DNA of 64,000 bases, from assembly GCA_016779205.1 (NCBI GenBank), contig JADHOC010000003.1, positions 124,001 to 188,000 of the forward strand. The letters run 5' to 3'. This DNA comes from Planctomycetota bacterium (lineage in GTDB: Bacteria; Planctomycetota; UBA1135; GCA-002686595). This document shows positions 29,579 to 35,780 of this stretch, piece after piece. A program made the translations under genes and the position numbers. The stretch's first letter is position 1; each line of letters starts with the position of its first letter. Under the pieces are notes generated by a model that saw nothing but the letters and a program-made list of their open reading frames with translations, had not been told where the DNA came from and made no database searches.

Positions 29579-31372
29579 GTGGACCCCAAGTACATCCGCA
29601 ACTTCTCGATCATCGCGCACATCGACCACGGGAAATCCACCCTGGCCGATCGAATCCTCGAACTGACGGGGACCGTGCAGAAGCGCGACATGAAGGCCCA
29701 GCTCCTGGACGACATGGAGCTGGAGCGCGAGCGCGGCATCACCATCAAGGCGCGCGCCGTGACGGCTGTCCACGAGAAGGACGGGCACAAGTACGTGCTC
29801 AATCTGATCGACACCCCCGGCCACGTGGACTTCAACTACGAGGTCGAGAAGTCCATGCAGGCGTGTGAGGGCGCGATCCTCCTGGTGGACGCCAGCCAGG
29901 GCGTCGAGGCCCAGACCGTGGCGAACGCCTACCTCGCCATCGAGGCCGATCTGGAGATCATCACGGTCCTCAACAAGGTCGACCTGGGACACGCCCGCCC
30001 CGACGAGATCGCCGAGGAGATCGAGAACAGCCTCGCGATCGAGGCCACCGACGCCTGCCGGATCTCTGCGAAGACCGGGGTCGGCGTGGACGACGTCCTC
30101 GACCGGATCGTCGAGAGCTTCCCCGCCCCCCAGGGGGATCCGGACGCCCCCCTGCGCGCCCTGATCTTCGACGCTGTGTACGACGAGTACCGCGGCGTCA
30201 TCGTCTACCTGCGGATCATGGACGGGACCCTCAACAAGAGGGACAGGGTCCTCATGAAGGGCACCGACAAGAAGTTCGAGGCCGTCGACATCGGGATCTT
30301 CAGCCCGAAGATGGAGTCTCGCGGCTCGCTGTCCGTGGGCGAGGTGGGGTACTTCGTGTCCAACATCAAGGCACTCGGCGACGTGCGGATCGGGGACACG
30401 ATGACCCTCGACAAGACGCCCGATGTGGAGATGCTCCCCGGGTACCGCGAGCCCCGGCACATGGTGTTCGCGGACTTCTACCCGACGAACCCCAAGGACT
30501 ACGAGACCATGCGAGAGGCGCTCGACACGCTCTCGCTCTCCGACAGCTCCTTCTCCTACGAGGCGGTCACCTCGGAGGCCCTGGGCTTCGGCTACCGGTG
30601 CGGCTTCCTGGGCCTGCTGCACATGGAGATCATCCAGCAGCGCCTCGAGCGGGAGCACGACCTGGACATGATCCAGACGGCCCCGTCGGTGACCTACAAG
30701 GTCCAGCTCAAGGACGGGACCGAGGAGATCATCCACTCCCCCGGCGCGCTCCCGAGCCCTGACCGCTTCGACGAGGTGCTCGAGCCCATCGTGCGCGTGT
30801 CGATGATCGTGCCCGCCGAGTTCATCGGCGTGACGATGACGATCTCCAACGACCACCGGGGCATCTTCGTCCGCCAGGAGCACCTCTCCCCCACCCGCGT
30901 CCAGCTCGTCTACGACGTGCCGCTCGCGGAGATCATGTACGACTTCTACGACAAGCTGAAGTCGGCTACCCGGGGCTTCGGGACGCTCAACTACGACCTC
31001 AAGGGGTACGAGCCTGCGGACCTCGTCAAGCTGTCGATCCTCGTCAACGGGGACGAGGTCGACGCCCTCTGCGCCATCGTCCACCGCTCCTTCGCCGACC
31101 CCCGCGGGCGCGCGATCCTCAAGAAGCTGCGCAAGGAGATCCCCCGGCACATGTTCGAGGTGCGCCTCCAGGCGGCCATCGGGTCCCGCATCATCGCCCG
31201 CGAGAGCATCGCGGCGCTGCGCAAGGACGTCACCGCCAAGTGCTACGGCGGCGACATCACCCGGAAGCGCAAGCTGCTCGAGAAGCAGAAGGCCGGCAAG
31301 CGGCGGATGCGGCAGGTGGGCAGCGTGGACATCCCCCAGAAGGCGTTCCTCAGCGTCCTGGGCTCGGAGTGA
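29579..31372 (+). CDS. lepA: Elongation factor 4 (LepA)
   Basis: This is a ribosome-associated translational GTPase. The 597-residue length is standard. G1 is AHIDHGKST, followed by DTPGHVDF (G3) and NKVDL (G4); the LepA-specific C-terminus is present (KCYGGDITRKRKLLEKQ ... GKRRMRQVGSVDIPQKAF), which separates it from TypA/BipA and EF-G. The start is GTG, and the conserved N-terminus (MDPKYIRNFSIIAHIDHG) begins right there. It is last in the rph-rdgB-lepA unit. Confidence 0.98.
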   Translation: MDPKYIRNFSIIAHIDHGKSTLADRILELTGTVQKRDMKAQLLDDMELERERGITIKARAVTAVHEKDGHKYVLNLIDTPGHVDFNYEVEKSMQACEGAILLVDASQGVEAQTVANAYLAIEADLEIITVLNKVDLGHARPDEIAEEIENSLAIEATDACRISAKTGVGVDDVLDRIVESFPAPQGDPDAPLRALIFDAVYDEYRGVIVYLRIMDGTLNKRDRVLMKGTDKKFEAVDIGIFSPKMESRGSLSVGEVGYFVSNIKALGDVRIGDTMTLDKTPDVEMLPGYREPRHMVFADFYPTNPKDYETMREALDTLSLSDSSFSYEAVTSEALGFGYRCGFLGLLHMEIIQQRLEREHDLDMIQTAPSVTYKVQLKDGTEEIIHSPGALPSPDRFDEVLEPIVRVSMIVPAEFIGVTMTISNDHRGIFVRQEHLSPTRVQLVYDVPLAEIMYDFYDKLKSATRGFGTLNYDLKGYEPADLVKLSILVNGDEVDALCAIVHRSFADPRGRAILKKLRKEIPRHMFEVRLQAAIGSRIIARESIAALRKDVTAKCYGGDITRKRKLLEKQKAGKRRMRQVGSVDIPQKAFLSVLGSE

Positions 31373-31426: not shown

Positions 31427-32836
31427 TCACTCGGCCGGGACCCGCACCCACCAGCCGACCTCGCTCTGGAGGAGGCCGCGGTCGTCCTTCAGCACCCAGG
31501 GGTGACGGTCCCCCCGCAGCTTGGCCGGGTCGGTGACGCGGCAGACCACCCGATAGCGGCCGGGCTCGAAGGCGCTGCGCTTGAAGCGGAACTCGTGCTC
31601 GCCGTCCCGCTTGCCCTTGCTCCGCTGGTCCGGCTTGGCCTCGATGGGCGGGAGCTCGACGGGGTTCCGCGTCGACCGCCGGCCTCGCTTCGCGGGGGCC
31701 GCGAACGAGCTATCGCTGACCGTGGACCGGGGCGCGTCGGCCTCGGGGAAGACCCACCATTCCACCTGGAGCATGTGGCTCGCCGGCTGCATGGCGGTCA
31801 CCTCGAGGACCAGCTCCTTGCCCTCCACCACGTGCTCCTCGTCCGACCGGCTCCGGTGAGGCGCCGGCGCCACCCTGTCGATGGGGTCCACCATCGAGTA
31901 GATCAGCTTCACGAGCTGCTCGCGGCAGACCGGGCAATAGAACTCGCCCGCGCCCATGATGCAGCCGTTGGCGGTGGGCCGCCACGCGCCGCGCGCGCGA
32001 CCGTCGGCGCCCTGGTACATGTCCACGCCGGGCACCTTGGCGTCGATGAAGTGCTTCCACGGAGCCCTGTCGGGGTCCGGATTGTCGGTCACGTTGACGT
32101 TGGCCTTGGTGGGCCCGCGCTTGTGGGTCTCGCTGCTGTACTCGTCCGAAAGGCGCCCGAACGAGTGGCCGAACTCATGCAGCGTGGTCTTCATGTTGCG
32201 GCCGCCGATGGTGGCGATCCCGCCGCCCCCCGAGCCGAGGACCCCGAGCTTGGCGAAGACGATCGCCTGCCCGTCGTGGGCCGGCAGCTCGTCCAGCATC
32301 CGGCGCACCTCGCCCCCGTTCACGCCCACGTGCCCGGCGTAGGTCCCCAGGATGTGGCCCCCCAGGGCGGTGTCGTACTCGCGCCCGAAGCCGTCCACGC
32401 CGTTGTCGGCGCTGACCAGGTCCGCTCGGATGAAGTTGAAGTAGCTGTAGTACTCGCCGAGGGTCCGGTTCCTGCGGAAGTAGTCCGGCAGGTCATCTGC
32501 GAGCTTGGCGAAGGCCTTCATCTCCTTGAGCTGATAGCCCTCCCCCATGAGCACGATGTCCACGCGGTTGGACGAATCGCCGTGCCGGACGATGTCGGCG
32601 GCCCCGAGGAAGGCGCTGGGCTTGGACCGGCGCTCGCCGATCCGGCCCTCCGGGGTCCCGGCGAAGTCCTCGGCGAGCTTCTTGTAGAGGCGCTGCGCCT
32701 CGCGGTACTTCCCGCTCTCGGCCCGCGACTCGGCCTTCTCCAGGAGGGCCGCGGCGTCCCCATCGACCAGGGCCGGCCGGGGCGCGGAGGGAGGGAGGAG
32801 CCAGAGCAACAACGGCAGCGCGAGCAGGGCCTTCAT
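31427..32836 (-). CDS. Secreted M64-family metallopeptidase (IgA-peptidase M64-like)
   Basis: The 469-residue protein has a signal peptide (MKALLALPLLLWLLPPSAP), a short TPR-like stretch (residues 28-60), and an M64 catalytic domain: VDIVLMGEGYQ near residue 92, the zinc site HEFGHSFGRLSDEY with His220, Glu221 and His224, and a downstream CPVCREQL. M64 proteins are zinc peptidases first known from cleavage of IgA; in environmental bacteria the substrate is unknown. The C-terminal 100 residues form a beta-rich region. TATCCT ends 6 bases before the ATG, indicating a leaderless message. Confidence 0.88.
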   Translation of the reverse strand: MKALLALPLLLWLLPPSAPRPALVDGDAAALLEKAESRAESGKYREAQRLYKKLAEDFAGTPEGRIGERRSKPSAFLGAADIVRHGDSSNRVDIVLMGEGYQLKEMKAFAKLADDLPDYFRRNRTLGEYYSYFNFIRADLVSADNGVDGFGREYDTALGGHILGTYAGHVGVNGGEVRRMLDELPAHDGQAIVFAKLGVLGSGGGGIATIGGRNMKTTLHEFGHSFGRLSDEYSSETHKRGPTKANVNVTDNPDPDRAPWKHFIDAKVPGVDMYQGADGRARGAWRPTANGCIMGAGEFYCPVCREQLVKLIYSMVDPIDRVAPAPHRSRSDEEHVVEGKELVLEVTAMQPASHMLQVEWWVFPEADAPRSTVSDSSFAAPAKRGRRSTRNPVELPPIEAKPDQRSKGKRDGEHEFRFKRSAFEPGRYRVVCRVTDPAKLRGDRHPWVLKDDRGLLQSEVGWWVRVPAE

Positions 32837-33388: not shown

Positions 33389-34921
33389 GTGTCTGACCCC
33401 GAGCCGAACCAAGACAAGCCCTTCGTCTCCTCTGCACCCACGACGGGGGCGATGTCGAAGGTGGCCGCGTCCGAGCCTGCGAGCAAGCAGAAGAGCCACC
33501 CCTGGCGAGACAACATCGAGGCGGTGGCCGTCGCGATCGCCACGATCGTCCTCTTCAAGTACTTCGTGGTCGAGGCCTACAAGATCCCCACGGGGTCGAT
33601 GCAGCCGACCCTGATGGGCAACGCCGAGACGGGGATCTTCGACCGCGTCATCGTCGACAAGTTCTCCTATCACTTCAGGGACCCCGAGCGCTTCGAGATC
33701 GCCGTCTTCAACTACCCGCTGGACAGCTCGAAGAACTTCATCAAGCGCATCATCGGGATGCCCGGTGAGGAGCTCGAGATCCGCGGCGGGGACCCCTGGA
33801 TCCGTCCGGAGGGTCAGGAGGACTTCACGATCCTCCGCCGCCCCCGCTCGATCCAGGATGCCCAGCTCCGGCGCCTCGACACCGAGGGTGAGTGGAAGAT
33901 GTCCATGGGGACCGCGGGCCGCTGGAGGATCAAGCCCAGCTCGTCGGGCGACGAGTTCTCGGCGACGGGCCGCGGCGAGGCCACGTTCCCAAGGACCTAC
34001 GAGTCCATCCGCGACAACTACGTCGACGGCTACCCCGAGGGGATCAAGGACAAGATCATCACGCTCAAGAAGGGGTCCAACTTCAACGACGTCTCGGACC
34101 TCCGCGCGCGCTGTGAGGTCCGGGCGGACGCTGGCTGCCGTGAGGTCGCGATCGAGCTGCACGAGGGCCGGCGCCGCTTCAAGTTCATCCTGCCCGGCCC
34201 CGCCGCGCCGGCGAGCGAACGCGCGCGGATCATCGCGACCGGGCTCGACTCGGACGACCTGGAGGTCGTGGCGACCGAGATGCCGGACGGCGAACCCGCC
34301 CGCCTCACCACCGGGGACCGCTACGAGGTCGAGGTGGAGAACCTCAACGACCGGCTGGCACTGCGGATCGACGGGGACGAGGTCGCCGCCGCGGAGATCC
34401 CCCCCGCGCCGGATCGGGCGCGCTCCAAGGTGACCCTCCGGATCGAGGCGCCCCAGGGGTCGACCACCACGGTCGACGACATGAAGGTCTGGCGCGACAT
34501 CTACTACACCTTCGACCCCACCCGCCAGAAGGTGAGTCGCTGGAACATCCCCCCGGGCAACTACGTGGTGCTGGGGGACAACAGCCAGGACTCCTCCGAC
34601 GGCCGGGACTGGACGCTCGTTCAGTTCCAGATCGAGGAGGGCGAGCGGGCCGGAGAGACCGTGAGCGGCAACCTCCGGGAGAGCAGCTCGCCGCGGCCGG
34701 ACGCCAACCCGCTGTACCTCCCCAGCAAGCGCAAGTGGGAGCAGCTGGTGCTCCGCGACACCCTCGGGGAGCGGCACGTCTTCGAGCGAGGTGAGGCGAC
34801 GCGCCTGTCCGACGAGGTGGCGCCGCTCGTCTCCCGGGACCTGATCCGCGGCCGAGCCGTGGCGGTCGTCTGGCCCCTGGCGCCGCAGCACGACGTCTAT
34901 CGCTGGAAGTGGGTCCGCTGA
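33389..34921 (+). CDS. lepB: Signal peptidase I with a large inserted lectin-like domain
   Basis: This enzyme cleaves signal peptides of exported proteins at the outer face of the inner membrane. At 510 residues it is about twice the usual length. One N-terminal membrane helix (about 45-63) is followed by the catalytic Ser70 in IPTGSMQPTL and Lys119 in NFIKRIIGMPGE; the last box, GDNSQDSSDGR, lies near residues 394-404. Between them, about residues 225-372 form a beta-rich insert (SDLRARCEVRADAGC ... RYEVEVENLNDRLALRIDGDEV ... TTTVDDMKVWRDI) that resembles concanavalin/laminin-G-type domains. A short second insert (RESSSPRPDAN to VSRDLIRG) follows the GDN box. The start is GTG with a TATTCT hexamer 7 bases upstream. 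Confidence 0.92.
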   Translation: MSDPEPNQDKPFVSSAPTTGAMSKVAASEPASKQKSHPWRDNIEAVAVAIATIVLFKYFVVEAYKIPTGSMQPTLMGNAETGIFDRVIVDKFSYHFRDPERFEIAVFNYPLDSSKNFIKRIIGMPGEELEIRGGDPWIRPEGQEDFTILRRPRSIQDAQLRRLDTEGEWKMSMGTAGRWRIKPSSSGDEFSATGRGEATFPRTYESIRDNYVDGYPEGIKDKIITLKKGSNFNDVSDLRARCEVRADAGCREVAIELHEGRRRFKFILPGPAAPASERARIIATGLDSDDLEVVATEMPDGEPARLTTGDRYEVEVENLNDRLALRIDGDEVAAAEIPPAPDRARSKVTLRIEAPQGSTTTVDDMKVWRDIYYTFDPTRQKVSRWNIPPGNYVVLGDNSQDSSDGRDWTLVQFQIEEGERAGETVSGNLRESSSPRPDANPLYLPSKRKWEQLVLRDTLGERHVFERGEATRLSDEVAPLVSRDLIRGRAVAVVWPLAPQHDVYRWKWVR

Positions 34922-34994: not shown

Positions 34995-35780
34995 ATGTCC
35001 AACGCTGACCAGCCCCCCCTCCATGTCGAGGGTCTGATCAAGGCCTACCGCGGCCGCAGGGTCGTGGACGGAGTGGGCTTCCACGTGGAGCCCGGCGAGA
35101 TCGTCGGGCTGCTCGGCCCCAACGGCGCCGGGAAGACCACGAGCTTCAGGATGACCGTCGGGGTCGTCGAGCCCGACGCTGGCTCGGTCCAGCTGGGCGG
35201 GAAGGACTGCACCCGACTCCCCATGTTCCGCCGGGCCCGGCTCGGCATGGGCTACCTCCCCCAGGAGTCGAGCGTCTTCCGCCAGATGACCCTGGAGGAC
35301 AACGTCCTGGCCGTGCTGGAGGCCCTCCCCATCAGCCGCAAGGAGCGCCGCTCCGAGGCCGCCCGGCTCCTCTCGGAGCTCGAGCTCAGCCACCTCGCCA
35401 AGAGCGGCGCGGACACCCTCTCGGGCGGTGAGCGCCGGCGCCTCGAGCTCGCGCGGTCCCTGGCGACCCGCCCCTCGATCCTGCTCCTCGATGAGCCCTT
35501 CGCGGGCGTGGACCCCATCAACGTCGAGGAGATCCAGGTCCTGATTCACCGTCTCCGGGACCAGGGGATCGGAATCCTGATCACCGATCACAGCGTCCGG
35601 GAGACCCTCCAGAGCACCGACCGGGCGTACATCATCCACCAGGGCCAGATCCTGCGGGAGGGCACCGCCACGGAGCTCATCAACGACCGGCGGGTGCGCG
35701 AGGTCTACCTGGGCAAGAACTTCGAGACCACCGCCCCGAAGGGGGTCTCGGCCCAGGAAGAGCGGGAACTCATCGACTAG
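34995..35780 (+). CDS. lptB: LPS export ABC transporter ATP-binding protein
   Basis: This cytoplasmic ATPase powers lipopolysaccharide transport from the inner to the outer membrane. The 261-residue protein has Walker A GPNGAGKTT, the LptB-typical GMGYLPQESSVFRQMTLEDN, the signature DTLSGGERRRLELAR, Walker B LLLDEPFAGVDPI and TDHSVRETL. Together they distinguish LptB from branched-chain amino-acid ABC ATPases. It supports a diderm envelope with LPS-like lipid, in line with the Omp85 gene at the window start. No other lpt gene is next to it. No Shine-Dalgarno is seen (GAATACCCATG). Confidence 0.93.
   Translation: MSNADQPPLHVEGLIKAYRGRRVVDGVGFHVEPGEIVGLLGPNGAGKTTSFRMTVGVVEPDAGSVQLGGKDCTRLPMFRRARLGMGYLPQESSVFRQMTLEDNVLAVLEALPISRKERRSEAARLLSELELSHLAKSGADTLSGGERRRLELARSLATRPSILLLDEPFAGVDPINVEEIQVLIHRLRDQGIGILITDHSVRETLQSTDRAYIIHQGQILREGTATELINDRRVREVYLGKNFETTAPKGVSAQEERELID

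Follow-up and report, generated by a model that had tools for sequence, protein, structure and literature searches.

What is an insert of some 250 residues doing inside the catalytic region of a bacterial signal peptidase? The question is raised by lepB in a 64,000-nucleotide stretch of planctomycete DNA (the window), whose product carries such an insert between two of its catalytic boxes. We examined the gene and its product, the predicted fold of the inserted domain, its occurrence in and outside Planctomycetota, and the residues that are conserved within it.

An interrupted type I signal peptidase

The open reading frame starts with GTG at 33389, and its stop codon ends at 34921; the start codons in loci L036, L037, and L041 align with this GTG. 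The product was matched by Pfam Peptidase_S26 (PF10502; E 2.8e-30, 105.9 bits against a curated cut-off of 22.9) and by NCBIfam sigpep_I_bact (TIGR02227; E 2.8e-29, 102.1 bits against a curated cut-off of 47). The insert breaks each match into two segments, the first covering the end of the membrane helix with the Ser and Lys boxes and the second covering the GDN box. The features of the gene are as follows.

33389..34921, forward strand: lepB, type I signal peptidase of 510 amino acids with a GTG start (open reading frame and profile matches)
33515..33571, forward strand: single N-terminal transmembrane helix at residues 43-61 (a hydrophobic segment that is modeled with low confidence)
33593..33613, forward strand: Ser box GSMQPTL, with catalytic S70 (GSM 69-71) (sequence and alignment)
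33740..33766, forward strand: Lys box IKRIIGMPG, with catalytic K119 (sequence and alignment)
33794..34543, forward strand: Lys-GDN insert of ~250 residues, 136-385 (alignment)
34574..34612, forward strand: GDN box GDNSQDSSDGRDW, residues 396-408 (sequence and alignment)
34625..34828, forward strand: second, smaller insert, residues about 413-480, ahead of the last core strand (alignment)
34850..34876, forward strand: conserved C-terminal core strand GRAVAVVWP (alignment)

The dyad and GDN-box residues of S26A enzymes are all present (S70, K119, G396-D397-N398, S402, D404, and R406), so that the original prediction read the three boxes correctly as intact. An N-terminal membrane anchor, also characteristic of S26A, is provided by the helix at residues 43-61, which is modeled with low pLDDT and lies in hydrophobic sequence. 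The catalytic residues are kept in a full-length alignment of the window protein with 31 family relatives and in a second alignment of 32 rows. Judged from its sequence, the lepB product is a type I signal peptidase with intact boxes and is predicted to cleave.

The Lys and GDN motifs of the window protein are 278 residues apart, close to the figure of about 250 first given for this distance, and the insert itself accounts for ~250 of these residues. Among 31 family members, the insert measures 229 to 257 amino acids, and 12 of its positions are invariant in a 32-row insert alignment (A3). In comparisons with L036, L037, and L038, dN/dS was 0.17, 0.27, and 0.25 for residues 232 to 372, the part later modeled as a concanavalin A (ConA)-like fold, and 0.00 to 0.03 for the catalytic core (residues 36 to 135). 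L040 is more distant (57% identity), and its values, 0.64 and 0.34, respectively, are much higher, with synonymous sites partly saturated. By the comparisons with L036 to L038, the ConA part is under purifying selection, yet it is evolving faster than the core. The conserved length and the purifying selection argue that the insert is not a product of chance or of a frameshift.

The ~65-residue second insert, which follows the GDN box, evolves at about the rate of the ConA part and is missing from several other families, including the anammox family f45. The tail that follows the GDN box is 105 to 132 amino acids long in complete members of the window's family and 39 amino acids long in several other families.

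The insert was also placed by comparison with E. coli LepB (PDB 1b12, 1t7d, and 9nlo). The two proteins share a catalytic core (phmmer E 7e-15), matched in an N part and a GDN part; between the matched parts lie 94 residues (82 to 175) in 9nlo and 242 (130 to 371) in the window protein. The splits in the S26 and PDB matches coincide, so that the insertion place corresponds to the slot of E. coli domain II. To our knowledge, E. coli domain II has not been described as ConA-like, which is the fold predicted for the window insert.

Predicted fold of the insert

The original prediction had proposed a compact beta-rich domain of about 150 residues with a concanavalin/laminin-G fold. Structure prediction bears out the fold and the compactness; the domain is larger than proposed, since the structural matches span residues from about 150 to 375.

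33836..34513, forward strand: ConA-like (L-type lectin/laminin-G fold) beta-sandwich, residues about 150-375 (AF2, Foldseek, and VIA-align)

In an AlphaFold model of the whole protein, built from an 8-row alignment, pLDDT averaged over blocks was 81 to 91 across residues 241 to 340; the catalytic core was poorly modeled (mean pLDDT 56.6), and residues 1 to 121 were below 50. An insert-only model (7 rows) had a mean pLDDT of 73.9 and a pTM of 0.78. Foldseek searches of the PDB with both models retrieved galectins, Emp46p/Emp47p, PL7 lyases, CBM66, sialidase lectin domains, and lectin-like domains of toxins, with E values of about 1e-6 to 1e-5 for galectins, PL7 lyases, CBM66, and Emp46p. The insert is thus predicted to be neither disordered nor an extended beta-ribbon. 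The two antiparallel sheets that define the ConA-like sandwich are present in the prediction, which VIA-align superimposed on known structures with Z 13 to 16 over about 140 to 190 residues. The top VIA-align row was the carbohydrate recognition domain (CRD) of ERGIC-53/LMAN1 (Z 15.7, rmsd 2.7, 162 residues aligned), with the next rows within 1 and so effectively tied; legume lectins and 3-keto-glycoside enzymes (3s5q, 3imm, and 9fbe) were also listed. The likeness is one of fold, with identity of about 9 to 12% in the ERGIC-53 rows. Taken together, the ConA-like fold of the insert is well supported by prediction.

Sequence searches recovered the same fold family faintly. Profile A5, built from 52 inserts from across the phylum, matched laminin alpha-1 LG (E 0.0061), SHBG, galectin, agrin, and thrombospondin among PDB sequences, all weakly, and also drew two NBR1 sequences, which we take to lie outside the ConA-like fold family. 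The family-only profile (A3) gave chance-level matches in the same search (best E 0.18). No Pfam or NCBIfam name could be attached to the window insert, with 0 Pfam families at E 10. A Pfam scan of the 52 relatives gave best E values of 0.016 for Laminin_G_3 (two relatives), 0.023 for Gal-bind_lectin, and 0.0024 for PF06439 (one relative).

These searches also bear on where the insert may have come from. In the window's own genome, the best match of A5 beyond two long signal peptidases (E 2.5e-5) is a protein that falls just under the Pfam cut-off for 3-keto-disaccharide hydrolase (25.0 against 26.8). Since this PF06439-like protein is the best non-peptidase match, the insert may plausibly have been drawn from the PF06439/Laminin_G_3 pool. 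The likeness to 3-keto-disaccharide hydrolases (PF06439, DUF1080) and Laminin_G_3 is again one of fold, the weak Pfam matches being confined to relatives of the window protein, and no catalytic motif was identified in the insert.

The structural matches raise the prospect that the domain is a functioning lectin, which would bind peptidoglycan, exported LPS, or glycosylated secretory proteins and so tether the peptidase or select its cargo, much as the L-type lectins of the eukaryotic secretory pathway do. The best matches, cargo-receptor and legume lectin domains (with the ERGIC-53 CRD at the top) and galectins, are what such a function would lead one to expect. ERGIC-53 is a cargo lectin of the eukaryotic secretory pathway and carries no attached protease. 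On the other hand, the window insert has no lectin Pfam match, few of the 52 relatives have even a weak one (the best are those at 0.016 to 0.023), and the ConA fold is very common and frequently occurs without sugar binding. Sugar binding by the domain is possible, with the fold as its one positive support, and we consider a working lectin of this kind unlikely.

Occurrence of the insert and context of the gene

A search with the whole protein in 61 genomes, the window's own included, gave some match in 60 and, as read from the listing, a match spanning the insert in 57 of the 61; G021 had no match, and G028, G052, and G055 matched in the N-terminal part only. At E 1e-3, the family-only insert profile found 192 of 292 Planctomycetota genomes. 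The phylum profile found 288 of the 292, a count that is partly circular because the profile was built from loci of the same phylum and that refers to profile matches, signal peptidase identity having been confirmed for part of them; 12 of the 288 matches were weaker than 1e-12.

Architecture was checked in 102 non-identical frames with Ser, Lys, and GDN motifs, taken from loci fetched for matching the whole protein, the insert, or the S26 family; frames missing a motif were dropped. The Lys-GDN spacing was 244 to 442 residues in 99 of these frames and 59 to 89 in the other three, which are short planctomycete signal peptidases. The family insert profile matched inside 97 of the 99 long frames. 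An S26 search of 29 near-complete genomes likewise found at least one long signal peptidase in every one of them: 28 have an S26 match interrupted on the Lys-GDN side by over 150 additional residues, and in G316, the long form was recognized by an insert match in a 585-residue frame. All detected S26 genes were long in 18 of the 29; five had an additional partial or weak match, and six also had a short signal peptidase.

The insert extends to the anammox bacteria. Hydrazine synthase alpha (PF18582) was found in 5/5 genomes tested from family f45 and in 0/3 from other families. The long gene was the sole S26 gene found in five of seven f45 genomes (G151, G165, G190, G237, and G251), and the other two (G136 and G200) had weak extra S26 matches. 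This agrees with the single signal peptidase I gene (kuste3749) given for Kuenenia in an earlier publication (PMC2881027).

Distances between core sequences and distances between insert sequences were correlated (r 0.80 over 4,950 pairs), with none of 500 permutations reaching as high a value, as expected of one old, vertically inherited insertion. An artefact in which misassembly or a frameshift joined a peptidase to a LamG gene close by, or an oddity of one lineage, is practically out of the question: nothing was found in its favor, and it is refuted by the relatives, with single open frames in 99 non-identical proteins, and by the purifying selection across the insert.

Outside the phylum, signal peptidases look different in this region. 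In each of 49 Verrucomicrobiota genomes, at least one S26 match covered the Lys-GDN half unbroken, as a single piece no longer than 597 bases, and in none of the 49 was a match split there or a large insert found. In 56 signal peptidases located by motif in non-Planctomycetota loci (L044 to L115, mostly Verrucomicrobiota), the Lys-GDN spacing was 60 to 95 residues (median 86), and the Ser-Lys spacing was enlarged to 154 to 198. Verrucomicrobiota signal peptidase I is thus also an enlarged S26 enzyme, but on the Ser-Lys side and not between Lys and GDN. A Ser-Lys spacing of ~153 coexists with the ConA insert in f45 genomes.

Insert-profile searches, for which the window's own genome and the 292-genome Planctomycetota search served as positive controls, found 0/145 genomes in Verrucomicrobiota (the phylum of a Haloferula genome) at E 1e-5 and 0/79 in the phylum to which a Calothrix genome belongs at E 1e-3, empty results that are weak when taken alone. 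A plasmid collection gave no insert match. Among 15 genomes reached through loci, three weak matches were seen at 1e-3 (L236, L237, and L238); the L236 protein is above the cut-offs for PF06439 and Laminin_G_2, and L237 has a LamG/PF06439 match below the cut-off. The chlamydial signal peptidase CT020 is described as greatly diverged in a 2006 paper (PMC1403754).

The neighbors of the gene indicate which signal peptidase carries the insert.

29579..31372, forward strand: lepA (elongation factor 4), recurrent upstream neighbor of lepB (TIGR01393, E 1.3e-267; synteny)
31427..32836, reverse strand: M64 (IgA-peptidase-like) metallopeptidase gene (PF09471, E 1.2e-15)
34995..35780, forward strand: lptB (LPS export ATPase), recurrent downstream neighbor of lepB (TIGR04406, E 1.3e-101; synteny)

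The order in the window is lepA, two reverse-strand genes (the M64-like gene and one encoding 106 amino acids without a family), lepB, lptB, and electron-transfer-flavoprotein-like genes. In L040 and L042, lepA is followed by lepB, with none of the examined gene set between them, and then by lptB. lepA, lptB, or both adjoin the insert-bearing gene in most of the loci fetched across the phylum, where flanks are short; neither is beside it in some loci, such as L147 and L153. In E. coli, too, lepA lies upstream of lepB. The M64 gene between lepA and lepB is present in L036 to L038 and L041 and was not found in L040 or L042. lptB recurs 3′ of insert-bearing lepB in many loci across the phylum; this adjacency would also suit a working lectin, with exported LPS among its conceivable ligands.

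The window's own genome encodes three signal peptidases: the one in the window, a short one (contig 23), and another with a long insert (contig 36; G000, locus L204, 5944-6738, reverse strand), in which Lys and GDN positions are 278 residues apart and which the family-only profile matched at 5.2e-5. The contig 36 enzyme has GDA in place of the GDN box. Tandem pairs of long signal peptidases are common (G017, G029, G032, G036, and G047; also G277, G325, G264, and G147).

Because of the lepA/lptB context and the genomes with only the long form, the insert-bearing enzyme looks like the main (housekeeping) LepB. The possibility that it is an accessory paralogue of a normal LepB was rejected, as the long form is often the sole one detected and as it is the copy beside lepA and lptB. 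In the window's genome, the short signal peptidase on contig 23 could share the housekeeping work.

A substrate filter special to this lineage, as originally suggested, is not supported, the insert being found in nearly the whole phylum (288/292), often in a lepA-lepB-lptB context, and in many genomes in all of the peptidases detected; substrate selection as such is possible. Another reading is that the domain serves as a docking site for an export or envelope protein peculiar to planctomycetes, perhaps one at the Sec translocon, with no direct part in substrate choice. Phylum-wide retention in the apparent main signal peptidase and a surface that evolves faster than the core are consistent with such docking; no partner was found, however, and lepA and lptB may adjoin lepB without any contact between the products. 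We regard docking to a dedicated partner as a tentative explanation, possible but on balance doubtful.

Conserved residues and possible roles of the domain

Conservation within the insert was assessed in an alignment of 100 planctomycete long signal peptidases.

34097..34099, forward strand: D237, Asp in 100/100 aligned planctomycete long signal peptidases
34346..34348, forward strand: N320, a position that is Asp in 90/100 and Asn in 10/100
34493..34507, forward strand: RDIYY motif, residues 369-373, with D370 (Asp in 100/100) and Y373 (Tyr in 98/100)

Arg occupies position 369 in 93 of the 100 sequences and His in the other 7; in the entry segment, 92 have Arg at position 150, and 99 have a basic residue, Lys or Arg, at position 151. 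Because the catalytic motifs were used to choose the rows, the constancy of the catalytic residues is not independent evidence; D237 and D370 played no part in that choice.

In other signal peptidases, domain II differs in size between family members and lacks conserved motifs, according to a study of S. pyogenes SipA (PMC4049620). The planctomycete domain fills the same slot in the chain as domain II, or the cap, of that SipA type; unlike the motif-less domain II described there, it has R-K/R-P, D237, D/N320, and RDIYY across the phylum. In the open-licence literature, we found no account of planctomycete signal peptidases with an inserted domain, lectin-fold or other. Thus, variation of domain II is known, and what appears to be new is a ConA-like, motif-bearing domain II fixed throughout a phylum.

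The positions of these residues in the predicted sandwich are informative. Alternating strand directions place 237, 320, and 369 to 373 at one end, the one through which the chain passes into and out of the sandwich. Strands 238-246 and 361-368 of the full model stop just short of 237 and 369-370; in the insert-only model, longer strands include them. Conservation in at least 60% of the 52 phylum rows was seen at 23 positions, a single one of which, 281, sits mid-strand. A lectin-type site would need conserved residues at the strand centers, and the residues conserved phylum-wide avoid these with that one exception, which counts against a working lectin; no conserved sugar site is seen. Since the conserved residues cluster at the entry/exit end instead, tethering of the enzyme to glycans, the other role originally suggested for the domain, is unsupported beyond the fold. 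Within the family, loops at the opposite end (e.g., 268-281 and 326-331) show fair conservation, and a family-specific ligand site there is possible.

The three acidic positions could alternatively form a metal site. In such a model, the cluster at 237, 320, and 370 would be a calcium- or metal-binding hinge that stiffens the domain, gates the enzyme, and couples its activity to periplasmic calcium. All three positions are Asp or Asn in 100/100 sequences; D237 and D370 fall in the long terminal strands of the insert-only model (its residues 99-113 and 226-242), where they would lie opposite each other if the strands pair; and calcium binding is frequent among LamG and L-type lectin domains. 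However, R369 and R150/K151 are almost equally conserved, and a salt-bridge network therefore explains the acids equally well. A metal-dependent gate seems to us improbable, although a metal site formed by the acids is a serious alternative.

The reading that we favor, with some confidence, is that the gene encodes the main LepB, whose domain II is ConA-like and probably acts as a noncatalytic structural and docking cap. One N-terminal helix would anchor the enzyme, and the usual Ser70/Lys119 dyad would cut signal peptides. The variable periplasmic domain II in the Lys-GDN slot would be replaced by the ConA-like beta-sandwich, whose conserved end (D237, D/N320, D370, R369, Y373, and R150-K/R151) would face the catalytic core, to judge from strand order and antiparallel alternation. 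The charged network at this end may lock the domain to the core and, on the predicted topology, fix the sandwich beside the cleft, leaving the less conserved far end and the faces free for substrates or partner proteins.

A more far-reaching version would make the domain a phylum-wide lectin-fold receptor within the signal peptidase, reading glycans, features of mature proteins, or calcium and thereby gating cleavage and the place where it occurs. We think this rather unlikely; if true, planctomycetes, including the anammox bacteria, would possess a bacterial counterpart of the cargo lectins of the endoplasmic reticulum, fused to the processing enzyme.

Type I signal peptidases have a catalytic core in common; the enzyme is, as a rule, essential and is a drug target. 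Protein targeting to the anammoxosome and cell envelope was called unknown in a 2010 paper (PMC2881027). If the architecture described here is read as favored above, a specific lectin-fold domain II with its own motifs appears to have become fixed in the main signal peptidase of one phylum, anammox bacteria included. The insert offers a concrete part for the study of planctomycete protein export and is a likely marker of the lineage.
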